A model generated the notes under the pieces. That model was not told the origin of the DNA, did no database searches, and worked only from the letters and a program-made list of their open reading frames with translations. A DNA stretch of 64,000 bases from contig SUSZ01000004.1 of the NCBI GenBank assembly GCA_015063165.1, positions 1 through 64,000 on the forward strand. Direction: 5' to 3'. The translations under genes were made by a program, and so were the position numbers. Source of the stretch: Thermoplasmata archaeon. GTDB taxonomy: Archaea > Thermoplasmatota > Thermoplasmata > Methanomassiliicoccales > Methanomethylophilaceae. Of the stretch, positions 233 through 41,619 are shown piece after piece (within the stretch, counting starts at the first letter, position 1; every line of letters begins with the position of its first letter).

Positions 233-331
233 ATGACCTACAACAGCTCGACCAATCCGGATCTCGGAACGCATGGTTCCAATCGGATCGACGCATCGAT
301 GGACGGGTTTAGGACCATTTCAGAGTAGGCT
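233..331 (+). other. In-frame upstream extension with a UAG codon (326-328)
   Basis: An ATG at 233 starts 31 codons, then TAG at 326-328, then GCT, then the ATG at 332, all in one frame with the Sel1 protein. The alanine after the TAG and the residues around it fall where the second helix of a Sel1 repeat is expected before the GD-x-x-AM segment. If UAG is read as pyrrolysine or suppressed, the protein starts at 233; if not, the leader is a 31-residue peptide and translation restarts at 332. GGAG at 218-221 could act as a ribosome binding site. Confidence 0.45.
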
Positions 332-3300
332 ATGAAAGGCGATGTGAGGGCGATGGTCCTTCTCGGCAGAGCCTATCGTGATGGAGATGGGGTCGAACAG
401 AATCTGACAAAAGCTGCAGAATGGTTCAGAAAGGCTGTCAAGATTAATGGTGATGGGGCGACTAACGAGCTTGTGAGCGTCCTGTGGAAGATCAAGACGA
501 TCGAATCATATGCGGAGGCGATGCAATTGATCCAGGAAGCTGCTGGAACCGGCGACGCTGCAGCCTTGGGACGTCTCGGCAAAGCCTATCTCGATGGGAA
601 GGGCGTCGATCAGGACTTGGAGGTAGCGGCGGACCTATGCAGAGAATCGCTGATGCGGGGAAATGCTAGGATCAAGCGCGATCTCGTCACTGCATTGTTG
701 CTGTTGTCAACGAAAGAATCCCTGGCAGAATGCGCCGATATATGCGAGGAAACCGACGAGCAATGGGCCAAGATGATATTGGCCGAGATGTATATGAGCG
801 GGTTCGGCACCGAAAAAGACATATTTCGTAGCCGGAAGCTGCTGAACCAATGCGATGCCAAATGCTGTGGCTTCAAAATGGCATTCATCGTCAATCCGCA
901 GGTCTTCGAATCCGAGGGGGTCGTATTGTGCGGCAGTCAGAGCCAGATACGCGTTCTGAAAACGATCGCGATCCAATATGCTGTTCCAACAGAAGGGTAC
1001 GTTTCGGACCGCGAATTCTCGTCCTTCTACGGACGCAGGATAGCCGCCGATGACAGGAAGCGCTATTCGGTGATGTGCATGGGCAGCCTTCCTGAGGGAT
1101 TGCCTATGGGGGATTGCCGCATATTCGATTGCGATCTGGAGAACGAATCGGGTCTCGAGCCGTTCCTTCTGCTGCGCGACGGCATCGATACGATAACGTC
1201 AAGCAGTGCCGACTCCCCTCTAATGGAACGGCTGCAAGTTCCAGACAATTGCAAGATGGATGTCGTCGAGAACTTGGAGGATATCAGCCTGACATCCTAC
1301 AACATCGTGACGAATGCTTTCAATTCGGCTGGGAAGATCCTTTACAGAGGCGGGATCAACGTCAGGTCCATCAGCTTAGACAGCTTGGAAACGAACTACC
1401 TGTCAGGAAAATGCATTTACAACCATCTCCATGATGAAAGGAAGCGGCTGCTCATATGCACCGAGGCGCCGATGGGCGATCAGTTCCGCACCCTGATACC
1501 GCGCCAGGGCTACGATCCGGATTCCAACGTCATCATGGTAAACAAGAAAGCCAGGGACCTTCCGTACATATTCGGAGTTCCAGGAATCGTCCTGGATGAC
1601 CCGTTCTACAAATTATTCCTGACATTCAGCTTGATGGACAGGCCGGAAGGCATGACGATGACCTCGGACCGCTACTACCCTGGCCTGAACTACGACAAAT
1701 TCTATTTCGGGTTTGACGGATACGCTGGAGATTGCCTGAGGCTGTCCTACAACACCAAAAGCAAGAAGAAGTGCATGAAGTGCTCGCTGCCAGAATGCGG
1801 CAAAGGGGTCCCTCCGAGATCAGTCCTTCTGAATCCGTATGGAAACTGGATAAGATCCAAGGTAGACGACGGTCTATGGAAGATGATCTCCGTATTCACC
1901 GATACGGCGGTCGAATTGAAAAGGCGCGGATACAACGTGTACACCAATGTCATGCCGGGCCAGATGGAGATAGACGGCACATCGCGCTATGATGCGACGA
2001 TAAGGGAGTTCATCGGCGATTCCAGGAATTTCGATTACGTGATATCCACGGTCACGGGATTCGTCGAGGTCTCCCTGCTGACGGATTCAGGGATCATAGT
2101 GATCAATCCCACTTCTTTCGATTTCTCCAGATTCGTGGACGACAACGACCATGAGAGGTACTGGGAGGTGAAGTGCGACAACAGCTTTAACGGGATCAAC
2201 GACAAGATTGTCGAGATCCTGGACTCAGACGACGGCCCTGTCAGGGTACCTCGTCCGAAAAAGACTATGGAGCCGCAGAGGCCGGACTTCCTTCCGATGC
2301 TTCTCGACGATATGGATTGCTATGATCCCCATATCGTCAAGTCCTTCTGCGGACTGTTCCAGGCGGACCGTCTCATGCCCTGTTGCGACGAATGCAGCTC
2401 GGTTTTCTCGAAACTTATAAAATATCACTTGATCGTGGATAGGAAATTCAACCATAGCATAGACGAGGACGTCTATCTGTTGAAGGGCCGTGTCGAGGAC
2501 GAATGGACAAGAGGCCTGTATCTCAACGCTTTATACAAGGCTTCCACGCCCGAATCGTTGGAGGAGTACGTTCGCGTCTCTTCCGAGTACAGCAGAAGGT
2601 CTGATCCGTCGGCATACTTGCTCTTGGGAAGAGCATATCGCGACGGCAAGGGCGTCGAAACGAATCTGGACAAGGCTTCGGAGCTGATGAGGGAATCGTT
2701 ATCCGCAGGGAACGAGCGGGCGATAGGGGACTTCCTGGGGGTCCTTTGGAGGATCAGGACTCCTGAAGCATATGAGGAGCTGTTCCAGACGGCCTTAAGA
2801 TATGCCGAAAAAGGGAACAGCACCGCCATGCTCTGGTGCGGAAGGGCGTACCGCGACGGAAAAGGCACCGTCCAGGATCTGGTTAAAGCATCGGATTGCT
2901 TGAGAGAGGCTTCGAAAAAGATGGGATGGGCGAAGAACGAGCTCTTCGATGTGCTATGGAAGATCGGGACACCGGAAGCGTACGAGGAGATGATTGGAGT
3001 CGCTGAAAGCCATGCCGCAACCGGCGACGGCAACGCCATCGGACGTCTGGGAAAGGCCTATCGCGAAGGAAGGGGCGTCGATGCTGACCTGTCCAAGGCG
3101 GTGGAATACCTTCGGGAAGCATCTGGAAAGGGCGTCGGCTGGGCGAAGAACGAGCTGTTCGATACCTTATGGATGGTAGGCACTCACGAAGCGTACGAGG
3201 AGATGATCCAGGTGGCAGAGGATTTCGCAGCCGCTGGGGATGCGAATGCGATGATCCGCCTGGGAAGGGCCTACCGTGACGGAAAGGGTGTAGATGTAGA

Positions 3301-3388
3301 CCTGGACAAGGCGGAGGCTCTCTTTAAGCAGGCATCGGAGAAGAGTCCTGCTGCGAAGAGGGAGCTGAAGACTATAGTTCGGTCTTGA
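332..3388 (+). CDS. Sel1-repeat protein with central glycosyltransferase-like domain
   Basis: A 1018-residue soluble protein in three parts. Residues 1 to about 170 and about 740 to 1018 are Sel1 (TPR-like) repeats, recognisable by G-R/K-AYRDGKGV motifs followed by KA-x-E-x-(L/F)-x-x-A. The middle, roughly 190-690, has a cysteine-rich patch near 480 (C-x2-C-x5-C) and then a segment starting LLNPYGNWI with LKRRGYNVYTN that resembles the second Rossmann half of GT9/heptosyltransferase-like enzymes. The same segment type occurs in the gene at 19339-20376. No signal peptide or membrane span is seen. Function is inferred as surface-glycan synthesis, with the Sel1 parts as protein-binding scaffolds. 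Stop is TGA. Coding probably extends upstream through an in-frame UAG to 233. Confidence 0.75.
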   Translation: MKGDVRAMVLLGRAYRDGDGVEQNLTKAAEWFRKAVKINGDGATNELVSVLWKIKTIESYAEAMQLIQEAAGTGDAAALGRLGKAYLDGKGVDQDLEVAADLCRESLMRGNARIKRDLVTALLLLSTKESLAECADICEETDEQWAKMILAEMYMSGFGTEKDIFRSRKLLNQCDAKCCGFKMAFIVNPQVFESEGVVLCGSQSQIRVLKTIAIQYAVPTEGYVSDREFSSFYGRRIAADDRKRYSVMCMGSLPEGLPMGDCRIFDCDLENESGLEPFLLLRDGIDTITSSSADSPLMERLQVPDNCKMDVVENLEDISLTSYNIVTNAFNSAGKILYRGGINVRSISLDSLETNYLSGKCIYNHLHDERKRLLICTEAPMGDQFRTLIPRQGYDPDSNVIMVNKKARDLPYIFGVPGIVLDDPFYKLFLTFSLMDRPEGMTMTSDRYYPGLNYDKFYFGFDGYAGDCLRLSYNTKSKKKCMKCSLPECGKGVPPRSVLLNPYGNWIRSKVDDGLWKMISVFTDTAVELKRRGYNVYTNVMPGQMEIDGTSRYDATIREFIGDSRNFDYVISTVTGFVEVSLLTDSGIIVINPTSFDFSRFVDDNDHERYWEVKCDNSFNGINDKIVEILDSDDGPVRVPRPKKTMEPQRPDFLPMLLDDMDCYDPHIVKSFCGLFQADRLMPCCDECSSVFSKLIKYHLIVDRKFNHSIDEDVYLLKGRVEDEWTRGLYLNALYKASTPESLEEYVRVSSEYSRRSDPSAYLLLGRAYRDGKGVETNLDKASELMRESLSAGNERAIGDFLGVLWRIRTPEAYEELFQTALRYAEKGNSTAMLWCGRAYRDGKGTVQDLVKASDCLREASKKMGWAKNELFDVLWKIGTPEAYEEMIGVAESHAATGDGNAIGRLGKAYREGRGVDADLSKAVEYLREASGKGVGWAKNELFDTLWMVGTHEAYEEMIQVAEDFAAAGDANAMIRLGRAYRDGKGVDVDLDKAEALFKQASEKSPAAKRELKTIVRS

Positions 3389-3584: not shown

Positions 3585-3601
3585 CTTTGTACAGGGAGCA
3601 G

Positions 3602-4717
3602 ATGCTAAGAAGATTCAGTGTCCAGAACTATAAGAACTTCCGGAACAGGGCCACCCTGGATTTCACGAAATCCCGTGACTATCGTTACAACATCTCGTGT
3701 GTCAAGGAAGGGCTTCTGAACAAAGTGCTGGTGATGGGACGCAACGCATCCGGCAAGACCAACTTAGGCTATGCGCTGTTCGACATCGTCTACACCTTGA
3801 CGGAGAAACTCAGCGAGGAACATCAAAAGGACAAAATCAGCTTTATAAACGGAATGAGCAACTCCCCGGAAGCAGCGTTCAGCTACGAGTTCCAAAATGG
3901 CGACGACATCGTTCTTTATGAATACCGCAAGACCGAACCCTTCATAATAACTTATGAATCCTTGAGAGTGAACGACGAGAGGGTCTTCGAGTTCGACTAT
4001 CACACCGGCACCAGGGATACGGAGGGGCTTTCTCGCTACGGAGCGGAGAAGCTGAGCTTCGATTCCATCGACGGTACCCTATCGGTGCTGAAATACATCG
4101 CCAGGAGTACTCCGCAGTCCGATTCGTCCCCAATGCATTTCATCATGGATTTCGTGAGCCGCATGCTGTATTTCAGGTGCACTTACGACGGCAACAGGTT
4201 CATCGGATTCTTCGGCAACTCGGAGTTTATGAACGACTTCATTATTAACAACGGCTTGGTCAAGGATTTCCAGGATTTCCTGCTCAAAACGGGTGGGATA
4301 GACATGATGCTGGAAGTGGAACAGAGCAGCTACCAGAAGGTGCTCGTTCAAAAATTCAGATACAAGAAGATACCTTTTGAGTACAACATATCCAGCGGCA
4401 CCCATTCGTTGGAACTGTACTATTACTGGAGCAAAAGGTTCGACACCGTTTCGTTCCTGTTCATTGATGAGTTCGACGCGTATTACCATTTCGAACTGGC
4501 CGAGAGGATTGTCCGCCATGCCATCGACGTCGTGGACGTGCAGACGGTCTTCACATCCCACAATACCGGACTGGTCGATAACAACATAATGAGGCCCGAC
4601 TGCTATCTCATATTGGATAACGGCAAGCTCAGATCCTTGGCTGATTCCACCAGCAGGGAGCTCCGGGAGGCGCACAATCTGGAGAAGATGTTGCATAACG
4701 GGGAGTTCGATGAGTAA
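3602..4717 (+). CDS. AAA family ATPase (OLD/AbiL-like, AAA_15/21 type)
   Basis: A 371-residue P-loop ATPase of the SMC/OLD-like group. It opens with RRFSVQNYKNF, the usual first strand of this family. Walker A is GRNASGKT near residue 45, the ABC-type signature is SSGTHSLELYYYW near 265, Walker B is FLFIDEFDAYYH near 285, and TSHNTGL follows as the H-switch. ATG 3602 is preceded by GGGAG and is preferred over TTG 3587. The gene overlaps the next by 8 bases. Pairs of this ATPase with a TOPRIM-like protein act in abortive-infection and OLD/Gabija-type anti-phage defence; that role is inferred from family and pairing. No DNA-binding domain is visible. Confidence 0.8.
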   Translation: MLRRFSVQNYKNFRNRATLDFTKSRDYRYNISCVKEGLLNKVLVMGRNASGKTNLGYALFDIVYTLTEKLSEEHQKDKISFINGMSNSPEAAFSYEFQNGDDIVLYEYRKTEPFIITYESLRVNDERVFEFDYHTGTRDTEGLSRYGAEKLSFDSIDGTLSVLKYIARSTPQSDSSPMHFIMDFVSRMLYFRCTYDGNRFIGFFGNSEFMNDFIINNGLVKDFQDFLLKTGGIDMMLEVEQSSYQKVLVQKFRYKKIPFEYNISSGTHSLELYYYWSKRFDTVSFLFIDEFDAYYHFELAERIVRHAIDVVDVQTVFTSHNTGLVDNNIMRPDCYLILDNGKLRSLADSTSRELREAHNLEKMLHNGEFDE

Positions 4718-5495
4718 GGTTAAGCGCATCCTTATAATAGTGGAGGGGCCGAATGACGAGAAGGTGATGGTAGAGAAGCTATGGGACAGGTTCGACAAGA
4801 ATGCCGATCATCTCGTCATGGCATACGAGACCAATATCTATGTGCTGATGAGGTCTCTTTTCATCGGTGGCGTCATGGACGACGACCTGGATTTGCTGAG
4901 GTTCCTGAAATCAAAAGATGTGCCTGAGGAAAAGCGCCTGGGATTGAACGAAAGGTTCACCGATGTCTATCTGATATTCGATTTCGATCCTCATGATCCC
5001 AGAGCCGATTTTGACATGCTGAGGAAGATGCTGAGATTCTTCAACGATTCGACATCCAGGGGCAAGCTGTTCATAAACTATCCCATGATGCAATCATACA
5101 GGCACATCAGGTCCAAGAGGGACTGCGACTTCAAGGATCGCTTATCCTCTGTGGACCTTGGCAAGAAGTACAAGTCCCTGGTGGACCAGGAAGCCTGCAA
5201 AGAGCTTAAACAGATCAACCGGTCTAATCGTGGAATACTTGGATGGATAATAAGGATGCACCTGTAGAAGATGAACTACATGATCAACGGAGTGTTCAAG
5301 ATTCCTTCCTACGATGCATATTGTAGCATGACTGGCGAGACGGTGTTGGACAAACAATTGGACACCATGAATCGGTGTGGTTCGGTTTATGTTCTGAACA
5401 CATCCATGTTTCTCATAGTCGACTACTGTCCGTCATGGTTCTTCTCCGACGTGGACAAGAAGGAACGACATTCTCATACGGGAGCGGACGAATGA
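4710..5495 (+). CDS. TOPRIM-like effector of the ATPase pair, with in-frame UAG
   Basis: The first 185 residues begin with strand-loop IIVEGPNDEKVM (the TOPRIM glutamate) and carry YLIFDFDPHD near residue 88-97 (the D-x-D pair), so a TOPRIM nuclease-like fold is likely. TAG occurs at 5265-5267, but the same frame continues for 75 more codons to TGA at 5493. The continuation (NYMINGVFKIPSYDAYC, then LDKQLDTMNRCGSVYVLNTS) has the composition of a normal folded domain and matches the C-terminal style I associate with partners of such ATPases. Either UAG is decoded, giving about 261 residues, or the gene is a nonsense mutant or truncated product of 185 residues. Start codon overlaps the ATPase gene, implying coupling. 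Confidence 0.65.
5265..5267 (+). other. In-frame UAG codon inside TOPRIM-like gene
   Basis: The context is CTG-TAG-AAG-ATG. The frame stays open on both sides, and the downstream part reads as a globular protein, not as random translation. The next ATG is six bases after the TAG, so reinitiation is also possible. Confidence 0.6.
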
Positions 5496-16762: not shown

Positions 16763-16851
16763 CGGCTAGTCAATGTTGTAGGCCATGGACATAAAAGCCC
16801 ACACTTTAGCAAGCAATGCAGATTATTTTACATTGGTCCGATTTCGGGCAA

Positions 16852-16864
16852 ATACTATTATAAC
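16852..16864 (+). promoter_or_regulatory. TATA box for the sugar-activation operon
   Basis: ATACTATTATAAC is centred about 27 bases before ATG 16887, which identifies 16887 as the start and not the in-frame upstream ATG at 16785. Confidence 0.6.
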
Positions 16865-16886
16865 GTTTCAACCGTTAGGGAACGAC

Positions 16887-18386
16887 ATGGGTGCGCTCGA
16901 ATATGTGATCGTCCAGGCGGGCGGGATGGGAACCCGTCTCAAAGGGTATACCAGAAACAAGCCCAAGGCGATCGTCCCTATCCACAACAAACCGATGGTA
17001 TTCCATCTGTTCGACAAGTTCCACGGCTGCAAGTTCGAGATAATCGGAGACTACAAGGTGGACGTCCTGAGGAAATACCTGGATGTGTTCTCCAAGGAGG
17101 ACTGTATCCTGGTGGATACCGGAGGCAAGAAGGGCACATGTTCGGGAATCAAGAGCGCGCTTTCTCACGTTCCGGAAGGGAAGAGGTTCATGCTCATCTG
17201 GTGCGACCTCGTCCTCGACCCCCATCTGGAAATCCCTGACGGCGACGGCAACCTCATCGGCCTCTCCGAGAAGTTCGAGTGCCGCTGGTCCATGAAGGAC
17301 GGCAAGCTGGTGGAGGAGCCCAGCTCCGAGAGCGGAGTCGCGGGAGTCTTCGTGTTCAACGACAAGAAGGCTCTCGAGAACATCCCAGAGGAGGGCGAGT
17401 TCGTCCGCTGGCTCTCCAACTCCGGCATAGAGCTGGATTCGTTCTACATCGGAGACAGCAAGGAGTACGGACTCGAGAAGCTCATCCCCAGGATCGAAGG
17501 CGGCAAGTGCAGGCCTTTCAACGAGGTCAAGATAAAGGGGGACAGGCTCGTCAAGAGGGGAATCGACGAGCAGGGCATCAAGCTCGCCAAGCGCGAGAGG
17601 GCCTGGTACAAGTACGTCAGCCAGTTCGACGGCATCGCCACGCCCCGGATATACAACTTCGAGCCGCTCGAGATGGAGCTGGTGAACGGCAAGAACATCT
17701 TCGTCTACGACTTCGACGCCGAGACCAAGAGAGAGGTCCTCGGGAAGATGGTAGGCGCTCTGAAGCATCTCCATGCCCAGGCCAGCGCGCCTGTCGATCA
17801 GACGAGTCTGGACATGGCCTACTACGACAAGACCTTGGACCGCATCAACGTGGTGAAGGACCTCATCCCCCACGCCGACGAGGAGCGCATCGTCATCAAC
17901 GGCAGGAGCTGCCGCAACGTGTTCTTCCACCTCGACGAGCTGAAGGAGAGGATCGGGAGCCTCACCTGCGACGAGTTCAAGCTCATCCACGGGGACTGCA
18001 CGTTCTCGAACATGATGCTCCGCGAAGGTAAGGAGCCCGTGTTCATCGACCCCCGCGGCTACTTCGGCAGGACCGAGATATTCGGCGACCCCGCCTACGA
18101 CTGGGCGAAGATGTACTATTCCCTCAAGGGGAACTACGACAAGTTCAACATCCGCAAGTTCGACCTCGACATAAAGGACGAGGTCACCCTTACGATAGAG
18201 TCGAACGGCTGGGAGGACATGGAGGAGGAATACCTCGACCTGATAAGGGACGAGGTCTCCCCAGAGGAGATCAAGCTCCTCCATGCCCTCATCTGGCTCT
18301 CTCTTACTACGTACGCATGGGAGGACTACGACTCCATATGCGGCGCATTCTACAATGGATTATGGTATCTGGAGGAAGTGCTATGA
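16887..18386 (+). CDS. Bifunctional sugar nucleotidyltransferase / APH-type kinase
   Basis: 499 residues. The N-terminal 230 are a sugar-1-phosphate nucleotidyltransferase: VIVQAGGMGTRLKGYTRNKP (G-x-G-T-R loop, then the KP lysine) and WCDLVLDP for metal binding. The C-terminal 260 are a choline-kinase/APH-like phosphotransferase with LIHGDCTFSNMML (catalytic HGD and Asn) and VFIDPRGYFG (metal Asp). It would phosphorylate and activate a sugar or polyol in one chain. The next gene, a SIS isomerase, overlaps by ATGA. The exact sugar is unknown. LicC/LicA-like activation of a phospho-alcohol is an alternative. Confidence 0.82.
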   Translation: MGALEYVIVQAGGMGTRLKGYTRNKPKAIVPIHNKPMVFHLFDKFHGCKFEIIGDYKVDVLRKYLDVFSKEDCILVDTGGKKGTCSGIKSALSHVPEGKRFMLIWCDLVLDPHLEIPDGDGNLIGLSEKFECRWSMKDGKLVEEPSSESGVAGVFVFNDKKALENIPEEGEFVRWLSNSGIELDSFYIGDSKEYGLEKLIPRIEGGKCRPFNEVKIKGDRLVKRGIDEQGIKLAKRERAWYKYVSQFDGIATPRIYNFEPLEMELVNGKNIFVYDFDAETKREVLGKMVGALKHLHAQASAPVDQTSLDMAYYDKTLDRINVVKDLIPHADEERIVINGRSCRNVFFHLDELKERIGSLTCDEFKLIHGDCTFSNMMLREGKEPVFIDPRGYFGRTEIFGDPAYDWAKMYYSLKGNYDKFNIRKFDLDIKDEVTLTIESNGWEDMEEEYLDLIRDEVSPEEIKLLHALIWLSLTTYAWEDYDSICGAFYNGLWYLEEVL

Positions 18387-22510: not shown

Positions 22511-22522
22511 CTATTTTATTCT
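22511..22522 (-). promoter_or_regulatory. TATA box for the LRR/GT9-like operon
   Basis: The minus strand reads AGAATAAAATAG about 46 bases before ATG 22470. The short leader contains AAAGGAG as a possible ribosome binding site. Confidence 0.45.
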
Positions 22523-22580
22523 GTCATGGAAAAAGTCTCGTCTGGATGCTAGCATGGACGGAACGCGATGCCGATGGTAT

Positions 22581-22592
22581 TGTTTTTATCAT
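22581..22592 (+). promoter_or_regulatory. TATA box upstream of the HAD gene
   Basis: TGTTTTTATCAT predicts a start of transcription near 22612, leaving a leader of about 30 bases before the small ORF at 22646. Confidence 0.45.
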
Positions 22593-22645
22593 ATGGACCA
22601 GTTGAGGATGCATCGGTCGCCGTTACATGGGCGGGGGTGCAAAGG

Positions 22646-22711
22646 ATGAAGTTTCTGTCGCTGTTCGAATCTCCGGGTCTCGCGCCCTTCGCTGGCGGTG
22701 CATCCTTATGA
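22646..22711 (+). CDS. Possible 21-codon leader ORF coupled to HAD gene
   Basis: ATG 22646 is preceded by GGGGGTG, one of the better Shine-Dalgarno matches here. It encodes MKFLSLFESPGLAPFAGGAS plus Leu and stops in TTATGA, where the HAD gene's ATG (22708) overlaps the stop. It may only serve to deliver ribosomes to the HAD gene. Length is too short for independent support. Confidence 0.3.
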   Translation: MKFLSLFESPGLAPFAGGASL

Positions 22712-24468
22712 CGTACATCCCGGCAACGTTCGAGGGCCTGGACCTGGACGATCTTCCGGAGTACGTCTCGTTCGACGCCTTCGACACCCTGGTCCTGAGG
22801 CCGTTCCTGAGGCCCACCGACCTGTTCAAGCACATGGAGGCCGCCGGAATGGCGCCCAAAGGATTCGCGGAGGCCCGTGTGAAGGCGGAAGCGGATGCAA
22901 GGAAGCTCCATCGCAGGGAGATAACCCTGGACGAGATCTACGCCTTGTTGGGTGACGACATGCAGGTTGCGGACGTCGAGGTCCAGCAGGAGCTGGCGGT
23001 ATGCCAGGGGAACCCCGAGACCATAGCCCTCGCCGACGAGATAGTCCGCCGTGGCGGCAAGGTGATCGTGACCTCCGACATGTACCTCCCGAAATCCGTG
23101 GTGGTGTCGATCCTGGACAGGTGCGGGGTGAGGAACCTCAGCGGGGTGTTCATCTCCAACGACATGGGGGCCAGCAAGTACTGTGGCGATATCTTCCCGA
23201 AGGTGCTGTCTGCGCTCGGGATAACCCCGGACAGGATGGTCCACGTGGGCGACAACCGCCGCGCCGACGTGGACATGGCCGCCCGCCACGGCATCAAAGG
23301 CGTGTTCTACCCACGTCAGACAGACAGGTACTTCAAGTCCAACCCGATGGCGAAGGAGTTCATCGGACGCGGGCGCGATCTGGACCGTTCGATAATAATC
23401 GGCATGGACGTCCTCCGCTGGTGCGGCGTCCTCGGAGAGAAGGGCGACGACGTCCACGAGCTGGGATACCGCTACGGCGGGCCCATGATGGCCGCTTACG
23501 CCACGTATCTTCTCGGCAGGATACCTGCATCCTCCCGCGCCCTGTTCGTCTCCAGGGACGGCTACAACCTCATGAGGGTGTACTCCGAGCTGGACCCGGA
23601 TAGGAAGGATCTGGCGTACATCCACGCCCAGAGGCTCCTGGCGTACATCTTCACCGACATCCACATCCCGTTCGGGCCGCTGGAGCTGAAGGGCAAGGCT
23701 CTCAACAGGTTCGAGCACCAGAAGGTGGACAGGTGGATGAGCTACCAGCTGAGCTACTTCAAGGACGATCTTGGGCTGGAGAAGATCCCCGAGGACCCCT
23801 ACGAGAAGGCGAGGATCTACAACGGGAGGATCGACGAGATCGACGCGCTCCGCAGGAAGGCTGCCGAAGCCTATTCCGCTTACGTAAAGTCCTACGTGGA
23901 CGACGGTGACGTCCATCTGGTGGACTGCACTACGATGAAGTTCACCTCCCAGAAGCTCATCGAGAGGATGTCGGGAAGAAGGGTGAAAGGCCATTACTTC
24001 GTGAGCCTGGCCGACGCCGACCTGGACTACGACTCGTACCATTACCGCGACAGGTTCGTGTTCGGATGGTCCCGCATCAACGTCCCGGAGTTCTTCATGA
24101 GCTCTCCGGAGCCTCCGATCGAGGGATGGAAGAACGGCTCTCCTGTGTACATGGAGGATGTACCGGCATGGGAGAGGAGCCGCTGCGAGATGTACGAAGG
24201 CATAACCCGGGGCGAATGCGGCTATGCCAAGGCGTTGAGGTCCATCTTCGGGGACCATCTGCCGGAGATGGGCTACGACTCCGTGACGAGCTGGTCCATG
24301 CTCTCCGCGGATTCCAGATGCGAGTACCGCCCCATCCTGGACGGCATGAAGTGGGCTTCCGGCCCGGACCACTCCGACTGGTCGCCTCTGATCCCGGGGC
24401 TGAAGGACCTGAAGTTCCTCGCGAAGAAGCTCATAACGGACATCATAGCCAAGATGAACTCGGCCTGA
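22708..24468 (+). CDS. Large HAD-superfamily protein of surface-glycan locus
   Basis: 586 residues from ATG 22708; the upstream in-frame ATG 22627 would add a non-protein-like stretch. The N-terminal 230 are a HAD domain: SFDAFDTLV (motif I), IVTSDMYLPKSV (motif II), and HVGDNRRADVDMAARHG (motif IV). The remaining 350 residues form an uncharacterised domain often attached to this HAD type in capsule and glycan clusters, starting near YGGPMMAAYATYLLGR and FVSRDGYNLMRV. It likely removes phosphate from, or processes, a glycan intermediate. Convergent with the next glycosyltransferase. Confidence 0.75.
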   Translation: MTYIPATFEGLDLDDLPEYVSFDAFDTLVLRPFLRPTDLFKHMEAAGMAPKGFAEARVKAEADARKLHRREITLDEIYALLGDDMQVADVEVQQELAVCQGNPETIALADEIVRRGGKVIVTSDMYLPKSVVVSILDRCGVRNLSGVFISNDMGASKYCGDIFPKVLSALGITPDRMVHVGDNRRADVDMAARHGIKGVFYPRQTDRYFKSNPMAKEFIGRGRDLDRSIIIGMDVLRWCGVLGEKGDDVHELGYRYGGPMMAAYATYLLGRIPASSRALFVSRDGYNLMRVYSELDPDRKDLAYIHAQRLLAYIFTDIHIPFGPLELKGKALNRFEHQKVDRWMSYQLSYFKDDLGLEKIPEDPYEKARIYNGRIDEIDALRRKAAEAYSAYVKSYVDDGDVHLVDCTTMKFTSQKLIERMSGRRVKGHYFVSLADADLDYDSYHYRDRFVFGWSRINVPEFFMSSPEPPIEGWKNGSPVYMEDVPAWERSRCEMYEGITRGECGYAKALRSIFGDHLPEMGYDSVTSWSMLSADSRCEYRPILDGMKWASGPDHSDWSPLIPGLKDLKFLAKKLITDIIAKMNSA

Positions 24469-24486
24469 TCGTCTCTTGCCCTCGAG

Positions 24487-25497
24487 CTAGACCGGAACGT
24501 AGGACCTTCCGGACCTGTAGAACACCAGCGCGAACCACGTCCTCATCATGAGGTAGTACACAGGCGGGAACATGCGCTGGAACAGCCCCTCCATGACGGC
24601 CATCCTGCTCGGGGTCCTCTTGAGCATCTCCCTCTGCTCCTCTCCGCAGGCGTACCTCCCGAAGGTCCTGAACGTGAGATGGCCGGACGACCTTATCCTC
24701 AGGAGGCTGAACCTGGTGCGGAAGAACTCCTCCTCGGGGAACCCTTCGATGTATTTCTCGAGGTTGTCGTACCTGACCAGCTCGGTGAGCCCTCTGCGGT
24801 CCTTGTCCTTCTTGTCGTTGCAGACGGAGCCGGGGGTTATCATGTACTTGTACAGCGGCTTGTAGTCGAAGCACACCTTCTCGGCGTGGAGCAGGGACTT
24901 GTAGGTGAACGAGATGTCCTCGCAGATCCCCTCCTCGAACCTTATGCCGTTCTTCAGGACCATCTCCCTGCGGTAGAGCATCGACCAGGACGCCACAGGG
25001 TACCTCTCCGTGGCTCTGAGCTTCGCCGCGGCTATGCCGTCCATGGCGCATACCTTGTACCTTCTGTCGTCCTCCTCGATCGGGGAGCGGTCGGTGGAGT
25101 ACCTGAAGTTGCATCCGACCACGTCGGCGTTCTCGGAATCGGCGATCCCCATGAGCTCCTCGAGATAATGGAGCGAGGGCTTGTCGTCGACGTCCAGGAA
25201 CCACATGTAGTCCCCCTTCGCACGCTCCAGGCCGTGGTTCTTGGAGCCTCCCAGCTCTCCCACGTCGCGGTACTCGTACACCGTGGCGCGGGGCATCTTG
25301 GCGGCCATCTCCCGGGAGATCTCCAGGGTCTTGTCCTCGCTCCTGTCGGATACGATCAGAAGCACCTCGATGTCCTTGTAGGTCTGCTCCATGGTGTACT
25401 CGCAGATGGACCTGACGAACTCCTCTCCGTTCAGCACGCAGATTATGACGCTGACCCTCGGATGGAATTCTGGCGGCTCCCCCGCGACGTTTGACAT
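24487..25497 (-). CDS. GT2 family glycosyltransferase
   Basis: 336 residues. VSVIICVLNGEEFVRSIC opens the GT-A fold, GGSKNHGLERAKGDYMWFLD and DVDDKP give the nucleotide and D-x-D metal site near residues 85-108, and EEGICEDISFTYK is the acceptor-side acidic motif. The hydrophobic C-terminus (FPPVYYLMMRTWFALVFYR) may touch the membrane. It is the only gene in the window that ends in TAG. Reading through it would run about 645 codons antisense to the HAD gene, so here TAG must act as a stop. It lies 33 bases after the GTPase-like membrane gene. Confidence 0.88.
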   Translation of the reverse strand: MSNVAGEPPEFHPRVSVIICVLNGEEFVRSICEYTMEQTYKDIEVLLIVSDRSEDKTLEISREMAAKMPRATVYEYRDVGELGGSKNHGLERAKGDYMWFLDVDDKPSLHYLEELMGIADSENADVVGCNFRYSTDRSPIEEDDRRYKVCAMDGIAAAKLRATERYPVASWSMLYRREMVLKNGIRFEEGICEDISFTYKSLLHAEKVCFDYKPLYKYMITPGSVCNDKKDKDRRGLTELVRYDNLEKYIEGFPEEEFFRTRFSLLRIRSSGHLTFRTFGRYACGEEQREMLKRTPSRMAVMEGLFQRMFPPVYYLMMRTWFALVFYRSGRSYVPV

Positions 25498-38556: not shown

Positions 38557-39582
38557 TCAGAACCTCAGCTGAAGGTCCGTCTGGCACAGGGCGACGGTCA
38601 TCCCATCGGAGGCGGTCTTGTGGCGGACTATGGTGCCACCGCGGGCTTTCACGGCGGACCTCTCGCATACGCAGTCCACCGCTGTCACGGATTTGACGAA
38701 GTTGGACGAAGAGAACTTCCCTTCGAGGCTCATGAGCTCCTCGGCGGAGAAGAACATGACGGGGCATTTGAATTCGGGCGCGAGCTCCAGCACCGCCCTC
38801 TCGTCGGATTTCAGGTCGACGCTCGAGATGGAGCCCACCCTTTCGGGGGCTATCCCGTCCTCCTCGAGGATCTTCTTCACGAACGCCAGCATCTTTGCGG
38901 GGTCGGTCCCCCTCTTGCATCCCACTCCGACGGAGATGTCCATCGGAACGAGGTTGAACGTGTTGTCGAACGGGTGCTCTGTAGGGTCGCGGGAGATGCG
39001 TATCCCGAAGTCCCCGGATTCGGCCAGGGTCAAGCCTCTGGGCAGGTCTCCTTCGACGGGCAGCTCCGACGAGAATCCCACGAACTTGTCCTCGAGGACC
39101 TTGGACGAGGCGATCTGCACCTTGTGCAGGTTGGTTATCCTGAGGCTGTTCTCGGTGGCGAACACATCGACGGAGAACTTCCCGTTGAGGTCGGTGGCGG
39201 TCGTCACGACAGGGGTGGATCCGATCCCGGCGGCTATCCTGTTGGCGAGCTTGTTGCATCCGCCTATGTGTCCCGAGAGCAGCGCGATGGTGAACTTCCC
39301 ATGCTCGTCCACGCAGACCACGGCGGGGTCGACGTCCTTGGACTTCACATAGGGCGCGATGAGCCTGGCCGCGATCCCGGTGGCTCCGACGAACACGAGG
39401 GCGTCGCTGTCCTCGAACCTCTGGCGGGTCCACTCGTCCGAAGTGGTCTTTATCCTCTCTACTCCTTCCACCTCGTGGGCGGTCTTGCATTGGACGGAGA
39501 CGTCGTCGCCTTCGAGGGCCTCTCTGATCCTTAGGGCGGTCCTGCATCCGTTCGCCGTGAAAGCTATGATTGATATCCTCAT
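38557..39582 (-). CDS. cbiG: Cobalt-precorrin 5A hydrolase
   Basis: 341 residues from ATG 39582. It opens the ring-A lactone and releases acetaldehyde in the anaerobic corrin pathway. The N-terminal part has ALVFVGATGIAARLIAP and LLSGHIGGCNKLA, and the C-terminal CbiG_C part has ISVGVGCKRGTDPAKM. The long frame extending upstream to 40503 is antisense-like filler over cbiD and is discarded. Start overlaps cbiD's stop in ATGA. Confidence 0.93.
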   Translation of the reverse strand: MRISIIAFTANGCRTALRIREALEGDDVSVQCKTAHEVEGVERIKTTSDEWTRQRFEDSDALVFVGATGIAARLIAPYVKSKDVDPAVVCVDEHGKFTIALLSGHIGGCNKLANRIAAGIGSTPVVTTATDLNGKFSVDVFATENSLRITNLHKVQIASSKVLEDKFVGFSSELPVEGDLPRGLTLAESGDFGIRISRDPTEHPFDNTFNLVPMDISVGVGCKRGTDPAKMLAFVKKILEEDGIAPERVGSISSVDLKSDERAVLELAPEFKCPVMFFSAEELMSLEGKFSSSNFVKSVTAVDCVCERSAVKARGGTIVRHKTASDGMTVALCQTDLQLRF

Positions 39583-40727
39583 CTGCTGGTCGCCTCCTCT
39601 ATGAGCTGGTCGGCGAGCTCGGTCTTGCCGAGCAGGCCGTACACCGAAGAGAACATCACCGCGCCGGTCCTGATCTTTCTGCCGGTGCGATGGTTCATGT
39701 AGAACTGGATCTTCTCCATCAGGAGCGCGCAGGTCCTCTCCATGAGTCCCGGCTCCGTCAGGAAGCTGAGGGCGTCGTCGGTGGAGATGCAACCGAGGAC
39801 CTTCTTCACGGTCTCGATGTCCGCTCCGGAGAGGGCGGCGTTCGCCGCGATGACCTCCATCCTGCAGTCCGCGTTGCGGGAATGGGTGTTCATGATCCCG
39901 CCCGCCACCTTGACGATCTTCCCTATGTTGGAGATCAGAACGACGTCGGTTCCGAGAGCGACCGCGTGGTCGAGCATCTCGCCGACGAAGTTGCTGCATT
40001 TGACGCACATGCCGTCGTCTATCCCGGGGATGGAGTCGCTGAACTCCTTTCCGTAGTTCCCGGGGACTACGATGAGGACCTTCTCGCCAGCAGCCGCGTG
40101 CACATCCATCTCCTTGTGGATGGATGCGATGAGGGCCCTCTCGCTCATGGGCTCGACGATTCCGCTGGTGCCGAGAATGGATATCCCATCCACGATCCCG
40201 AGACGGGGGTTGAACGTCTTGGATGCGATCTCCTCCCCTTCCGGAACGGAGACTATGACAGAGAATCCGCCCTTGTAGCCGAACGACAGGGCTATGTCCT
40301 CCAGAGATTCGCGCATCATGCTCCTGGGCACCTTGTTGATGGCGGCGTTCCCTGGAGGCTGGTCCAGGCCCTTCCTGGTGACCCTTCCGACCCCTTTGCC
40401 GCCGTCGATGGCGATGCCGCTGTCGGTCAGGGTGACCTCGGAGAACACCAGGGTCCCATGTGTGGCGTCCTGGTCGTCCCCTCCGTCCTTCCTGACGGCG
40501 CAAGAAGCCTTGCCGTCGCCCATCGAAGGCGATTCGACGGGAAGATGGAGGAGTATGCCCTTAGGGGTGAGAATCTCGACGGTCTCGGGGAACTCCCCGG
40601 ATAGAACGGCGATGGCGGATGCCTTCGTCGCCGCGGCGGCACAGGTCCCTGTGGTGTGTCCGCACCTCATGCGACGGGTTCCGACTTGGATGTAATTGCC
40701 ATCGGCCTCCTCGGTTCCTCTATCCAT
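39579..40727 (-). CDS. cbiD: Cobalt-precorrin-5B C1-methyltransferase
   Basis: 382 residues. Characteristic MRCGHTTGTCAAAATKA near the N-terminus, RVTRKGLDQPPGNAAIN and LISNIGKIVKVAGGIMNTHS. Methylates C1 after CbiG acts. ATG 40727 lies about 26 bases after a TATA-like box, so it probably heads its own leaderless transcript in addition to read-through from the upstream genes. Confidence 0.93.
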   Translation of the reverse strand: MDRGTEEADGNYIQVGTRRMRCGHTTGTCAAAATKASAIAVLSGEFPETVEILTPKGILLHLPVESPSMGDGKASCAVRKDGGDDQDATHGTLVFSEVTLTDSGIAIDGGKGVGRVTRKGLDQPPGNAAINKVPRSMMRESLEDIALSFGYKGGFSVIVSVPEGEEIASKTFNPRLGIVDGISILGTSGIVEPMSERALIASIHKEMDVHAAAGEKVLIVVPGNYGKEFSDSIPGIDDGMCVKCSNFVGEMLDHAVALGTDVVLISNIGKIVKVAGGIMNTHSRNADCRMEVIAANAALSGADIETVKKVLGCISTDDALSFLTEPGLMERTCALLMEKIQFYMNHRTGRKIRTGAVMFSSVYGLLGKTELADQLIEEATSR

Positions 40728-40747
40728 GTGGAATGGATACTTAATCC

Positions 40748-40759
40748 ATATATTAATTA
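40748..40759 (-). promoter_or_regulatory. Internal promoter before cbiD
   Basis: The minus strand reads TTAATTAATATAT in the only large gap (124 bases) of the tetrapyrrole operon, spaced for a start at cbiD's ATG. The rest of the gap shows no other feature. Confidence 0.5.
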
Positions 40760-40851
40760 AACGTTCCTAATCAGAATCGAGGATTCGGGCGTTAACATAT
40801 GACGCCAGAATATTGCAGAATATGGTTCTCGGCAGCAGCGTCGACGATCGC

Positions 40852-41619
40852 TCAGGCATCGTTCTCGGAGCGCCTTTCCGATGCGGACAACGCCTTCTCC
40901 CATTTCTCCATGGTCAGGAACGACGAACCGGTGTTGGCCTCCATCCTCTTCCACATGGAGTACGGGGCGGAGAACGACATCTCCTCCGGGCGGACGAACT
41001 TCCTGGCGTACAGGTCCGTCATGCCGAGGATGGCATGGGGGTCGTCCGATTCCCCCTCTCCCTTGGGGATGACGTAGATCTCCTGGCAGGCGTGCGCGTG
41101 GAGGATCTTCACAGCCGATCCCGGGGTCTTCTTGTCGTATCCGGCGAGGATGATCAGAGCGGACAGACGGGTCGGATCCACAAGAAGCGAGACGACCTCG
41201 ATAGGCGCTCCCTTGGCCTCAGCGACAGAAAGGGGCTCGAAGACGATGGCGTCCTTCAGGTCGGGGAAGTCCTTTATCTCGGACATCTGGGCGAGGGCGG
41301 CGTCGCTGTCGACGTACTCCCTCTGTCCTCCGCTTCCGGCGTGGTGCATGTCCTTGCGCGCCTCTTCGGGGACGACGGAGCATGACCATGCGCTGCGCTG
41401 CCTGCTCGGTATGGGGCCGAATCCCAGGCCGCTGACGCCTCCGTGGCAGAAGACGTGCTCCCTGTCGGCGGCGCAGGTCTTCCCGTTCCTGAAGGCCATC
41501 AGGAACAGCGGAGGGATGCTGCAGTGCCCGCTGGGTATGTGGGCGCCTTCGGGTATGCTCGGGGCCCTGTATATGGCTACAGGCTCGCATTTCATCCTGA
41601 GTAGTTCCGCTATGGTCAT
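40852..41619 (-). CDS. DUF169 family protein
   Basis: 255 residues typical of DUF169: IAELLRMKCEPVAIYR at the start, CSIPPLFLMAFRNGKTCAAD, HGGVSGLGFGP, and FEPLSVAEAK, with several conserved cysteines and histidines that could bind metal or a cluster. Its place between hemD and cbiD suggests a link with tetrapyrrole or metallocofactor chemistry, but the family has no defined function that I can state. Confidence 0.8.
   Translation of the reverse strand: MTIAELLRMKCEPVAIYRAPSIPEGAHIPSGHCSIPPLFLMAFRNGKTCAADREHVFCHGGVSGLGFGPIPSRQRSAWSCSVVPEEARKDMHHAGSGGQREYVDSDAALAQMSEIKDFPDLKDAIVFEPLSVAEAKGAPIEVVSLLVDPTRLSALIILAGYDKKTPGSAVKILHAHACQEIYVIPKGEGESDDPHAILGMTDLYARKFVRPEEMSFSAPYSMWKRMEANTGSSFLTMEKWEKALSASERRSENDA

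Follow-up and report, generated by a model that had tools for sequence, protein, structure and literature searches.

A probable pyrrolysine codon near the 5' end of a Sel1-repeat protein gene in a Methanomethylophilaceae archaeon

Reading frame and Sel1 homology across the UAG

Does a Sel1-repeat protein whose frame is open on both sides of a single TAG begin at the ATG chosen by a standard gene finder, or upstream of the TAG? The question concerns positions 233-3388 (+) of the window, the whole stretch of 64,000 nucleotides analysed, with which contig C45 begins (genome of 2.28 Mb in 67 contigs). The standard gene finder started the ORF at ATG 332 (332-334, +), and the ORF 332-3388 had 1018 codons; only one codon separated this ATG from the in-frame TAG 326-328 (+). 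ATG 233-235, TAG 326-328, ATG 332-334 and the stop TGA 3386-3388 shared a reading frame, which from 233 to 3385 was interrupted by no stop other than TAG 326-328. The positions of the stops thus confirmed the proposal of the first-pass annotation that the frame of ATG 233 joins the annotated ORF through one TAG. The upstream extension through TAG 326-328 reached both ATG 299 (299-301, +), a third in-frame start located 5' of the TAG and absent from the first-pass annotation, and ATG 233 (233-235, +), the most upstream start possible. The frame was closed 5' by TGA 155, and 158-233 contained no other in-frame ATG, GTG or TTG. With the UAG read as pyrrolysine, at residue 32 counted from ATG 233, the extended ORF (233-3388, +) would encode 1051 residues, with N-terminal Sel1 repeats, a middle domain without a family assignment and C-terminal Sel1 repeats.

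The protein matched the Sel1 family of Pfam (PF08238) with 114 bits against a cut-off of 30.7. The Sel1 profile aligned FRTISE-X-AMKGD with helix A of a Sel1 repeat, across UAG 326, and the codons FRTISE-O-AMK of this helix in the first repeat spanned 308-337 (+). With a profile that was not independent of this protein (five of its sister repeats were in the seed, the first repeat itself being left out), the score across the UAG was reached by 2 of 3000 residue shuffles, 2 of 3000 wrong-frame pieces and 16 of 3000 intergenic open frames, and the chance of the helix A homology was about 0.0007-0.005. At least some of the intergenic exceedances were probably undetected Sel1 pieces, as the best of them scored 85.6. 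The homology 5' of the UAG was short: the profile alignment covered six residues there, and pairwise alignments reached at most about 15. In 43 distinct alignments the match started six or more residues ahead of the UAG, and almost all of these (query self-match included) had a sense residue opposite it.

A sense codon at the position of the UAG in related Sel1 proteins had been named by the first-pass annotation as a comparison to make, and the answer obtained was partial. Sister repeats had sense residues there, namely Tyr (TAC 2588 and TAT 2801), His, Phe or Ala; a full-length orthologue was found neither among 31 congeners nor in genome_contigs with the 332-2400 protein as query, and the comparison was among paralogous repeats only. 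When residues 1-216 were modelled by AF2 with Lys in place of the UAG, from a shallow alignment of four rows, all from this protein, residues 23-34 formed a confident helix and residues 1-16 were predicted to be disordered (pLDDT < 50). The solved folds closest to the model were Sel1 proteins. The profile alignment, the shuffles, the sister repeats and the modelled helix agreed with the earlier observation that the residues straddling the TAG fit the helix preceding the first Sel1 motif, and the helix A homology spanning the UAG placed the beginning of the repeat 5' of ATG 332, as had been suggested.

The middle domain (about residues 210-675 of the extended protein; window 860-2250, +) was flanked by Sel1 repeats and belonged to a family present in this genus, whose members were 24-28% identical to the copy in the window. 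The protein had been labelled a glycosyltransferase by the first-pass annotation, and neither Pfam nor PDB sequence searches of the middle domain supported the label, with no Pfam family at E up to 1 and no match to a PDB sequence at E < 0.28. A single-sequence structure model of the domain was unusable (pLDDT 30). By sequence, the glycosyltransferase identity of the middle domain is unproven, and a resemblance at the level of the fold may exist.

Pyrrolysine machinery and in-frame UAG codons in the genome

The genome, that of a gut methanogen, contained pylS (255 bits, over the cut-off; the encoded PylS was short, 273 aa), a tRNA-Pyl with a CUA anticodon, a pylB ORF and the start of pylC beside tRNA-Pyl/pylS as read from ORF translations, a pylD match over the cut-off, and two mtmB genes, each with one TAG inside. 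PylS was up to 93% identical to the PylS of MAGs named Methanomethylophilaceae or Methanomassiliicoccaceae, several of them from ruminants.

In a sample of 621 kb, predicted ORFs ended with TGA (78%), TAA (12%) or TAG (10%). A coding-like extension past the stop was present in 22 of 46 ORFs ended by TAG vs. 38 of 405 ended by TGA or TAA (P about 1e-9; same 621-kb sample). A profile made from 46 repeats, taken from this genome and related ones, together with the five seed repeats of this protein, found a TAG inside nine Sel1 domains; no domain was broken by TGA or TAA. Two other Sel1 proteins, L069 and L072, had a TAG in the same helix (helix A); in both (frame from 8913, +, and frame from 14612, -, respectively) sister repeats often had Trp (TGG) opposite the TAG.

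In-frame TAG codons were also found outside Sel1 repeats. Three paralogues of the middle domain from two genomes (L009, L026 and L088) had an in-frame TAG at the same position (ELOCTINP in L026 and L088), where others had Lys or Arg, and this TAG appears to be a stronger example than UAG 326 of a pyrrolysine codon conserved outside the methyltransferases. In L027, a TAG occupied the position at which relatives have Lys in PGTKRYE. Profile homology of a PDC-M12B-like gene a short way downstream in the window (4710-5495, +) ran across an in-frame TAG at 5265-5267. It seems from these results that UAG is read as sense in many genes of this genome, as a matter of routine.

Two further loci of the window were recorded. 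At 3587-5495 (+), an AAA ATPase (PADLOC PDC-M12A, E 3e-108) was followed by the PDC-M12B-like protein (E 3e-51), a candidate anti-phage defence pair with a putative pyrrolysine codon. At 22516-25497 (-), the frame of a large protein that includes a domain of glycosyltransferase family 2 contained TAGs at residues 337 and 983, one or both of them with coding-like sequence on either side.

UAG 326 itself is likely read as sense, with the real start upstream of it, at ATG 233 or ATG 299. A tRNA-Pyl charged by PylS would decode UAG 326 and place pyrrolysine within helix A of the first Sel1 repeat, at what would be a tolerant position, occupied by Tyr, Phe, His, Ala and others in sister repeats. 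The simplest origin would be a one-base change of TAC or TAT to TAG. The pyrrolysine would probably not be catalytic, and it is taken as a neutral substitution because UAG would be efficiently suppressed in this lineage. A search for a pyrrolysine insertion element 3' of UAG 326 found RNA structure that was not unusual (z -1.26; 326-425); decoding by PylS/tRNA-Pyl competes with the release factor and does not require an RNA element (PMC9499178).

Start codon and alternative readings

Between the two starts upstream of UAG 326, the weight of the evidence was divided about evenly. Of the three candidate starts, only ATG 233 was preceded by a Shine-Dalgarno-like sequence, GGAG at -16. The first-pass annotation had supported ATG 233 with a TATA box about 22 bases upstream (TCTATACA, 207-214, +). 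The TATA tetramer was indeed present at 209-212, 21-24 nt before ATG 233; the best 8-mer near ATG 233, TATACATC at 209, had a weak score and started at -24, off the peak of -31 to -27 measured upstream of well-bounded starts of leaderless-type genes of the genome. The TATA box was rejected as support for a start at ATG 233 for its weak match and off-peak spacing. Taken literally, TATA 209 would place the start of the transcript near 236-239, downstream of ATG 233. The strongest TATA-like site of the leader, and the best such 8-mer of 1-330, was TTGAAATA at 101, within an A+T-rich stretch (85-150, +), a candidate promoter from which the leader would be about 100 nt long. A sigma-70 promoter scan gave one match, at 101-129, which is irrelevant for an archaeon. 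A short ORF from ATG 187 to TAG 226 (MGFYRGPLYIGAG; 187-228, +) ended just 5' of ATG 233 and may be due to chance.

That the UAG is read and translation starts at ATG 299, giving MDGFRTISE-Pyl-AMKGD without the disordered tail, is a substantial possibility short of probable. ATG 299 encodes residue 23, exactly the first residue of the predicted helix A, after the low-confidence residues 1-16, and this start accounts for the helix as well as ATG 233 does; within the same genome, the Sel1 protein L034 can begin equally far from its first Gly-Asp; and a transcript starting as TATA 209 would imply would lack ATG 233. No Shine-Dalgarno-like sequence preceded 299, whereas GGAG precedes 233.

Both of these starts imply reading through the UAG. 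With a start at ATG 332, the TAG would simply be a stop within the 5' leader, and the likeness to the helix would be a product of chance or a remnant of a once longer repeat; this reading is rather unlikely. Some results count in its favour. The codon score of 233-325 was near zero, within the lowest 5% of coding pieces and the lowest 18% of N-terminal pieces, and was reached by 40% of intergenic open frames, so that the codon usage of these 31 codons was uninformative either way, which leaves room for a start at ATG 332. Among genes whose nearest stop upstream was TAG, 34% had beyond it an open stretch of 20 or more codons led by an ATG, and for TGA the share was 32%. Extensions of this kind past a stop, TGA included, are seen in roughly one gene in three and are commonplace; what goes beyond chance at this locus is that the Sel1 helix homology continues through the TAG. 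The cbiD gene (39579-40859, -) and a nucleotidyltransferase/APH-like protein gene (16773-18386, +) also had a TAG near the 5' end, in a sequence that was probably just leader, and the two caution against extending a gene by its frame alone. Against ATG 332 stood the low chance of the helix homology given above. Initiation at this codon would also cost repeat 1 the greater part of its helix A; the N-terminus would fall midway along the helix, and none of the compared Sel1 proteins with a first repeat near the N-terminus clearly starts in this way. In addition, ATG 332 was without a Shine-Dalgarno-like sequence, and no TATA-like 8-mer at leaderless distance from it was among the best sites.

It is improbable that the two products are alternatives switched by the supply of pyrrolysine, with ample Pyl-tRNA giving the extended protein and, otherwise, termination at UAG 326 and reinitiation at ATG 332 giving a product without the first Sel1 helix. 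The distance of just one codon between UAG 326 and the next in-frame ATG, and the intact ORF beyond, would suit such an arrangement; it was a single case with no sign of selection for it, and most other in-frame TAGs in Sel1 domains lay deep inside genes without an ATG at such a distance. Least probable of all, a sequencing or assembly error would have made the TAG from TAC, TAT or another codon near the end of the contig (the TAG is 326 bases from its first base), an explanation not needed in view of the many in-frame TAGs deep within contigs of the same genome.

Relation to known pyrrolysine and Sel1 proteins

The preferred reading, a probable 5' extension through a pyrrolysine codon, resembles cases already known in close relatives. 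For Ca. Methanomethylophilus alvus, pyrrolysine candidates outside the methyltransferases were listed in 2014, among them the Sel-1 protein AGI86303.1 and a member of glycosyltransferase family 29, and were explained as suppressed UAGs becoming tolerated mutations (Borrel et al. 2014, PMC4153887, Table 7). The protein studied here is like AGI86303.1 in being a Sel1-repeat protein with an in-frame UAG, other than a methylamine methyltransferase, from the same order and with the same pyl machinery; the likeness implies no orthology. Unlike in AGI86303.1, the UAG is at the extreme 5' end, where it conceals the start and does not divide the gene in two.

As proposed for UAG 326, the amber codon of mtmB, mtbB and mttB is decoded by PylS/tRNA-Pyl. 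In those methyltransferases pyrrolysine is catalytic and conserved, whereas UAG 326 falls on a variable position of the helix and is probably neutral. The closest matches of the repeats in sequence and fold were the solved Sel1 proteins 4bwr, 6ok3, 8sxq and 1ouv (HcpC), which share the helix-loop-helix solenoid; the protein of the window differs from them by extra helices, which result in units of about 70 residues, and by the middle domain unmatched by Pfam or PDB.

Some archaea reportedly use all of their UAG codons as pyrrolysine, according to a report from 2025. If UAG 326 is read as proposed, pyrrolysine decoding can mask true N-termini and not C-terminal halves alone: a standard gene caller resumes at the following ATG and drops the N-terminal end. 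The dozens of in-frame UAGs of this genome, several of them in Sel1 proteins, support the idea of UAG drifting as a tolerated sense codon in the proteome of gut Methanomethylophilaceae.
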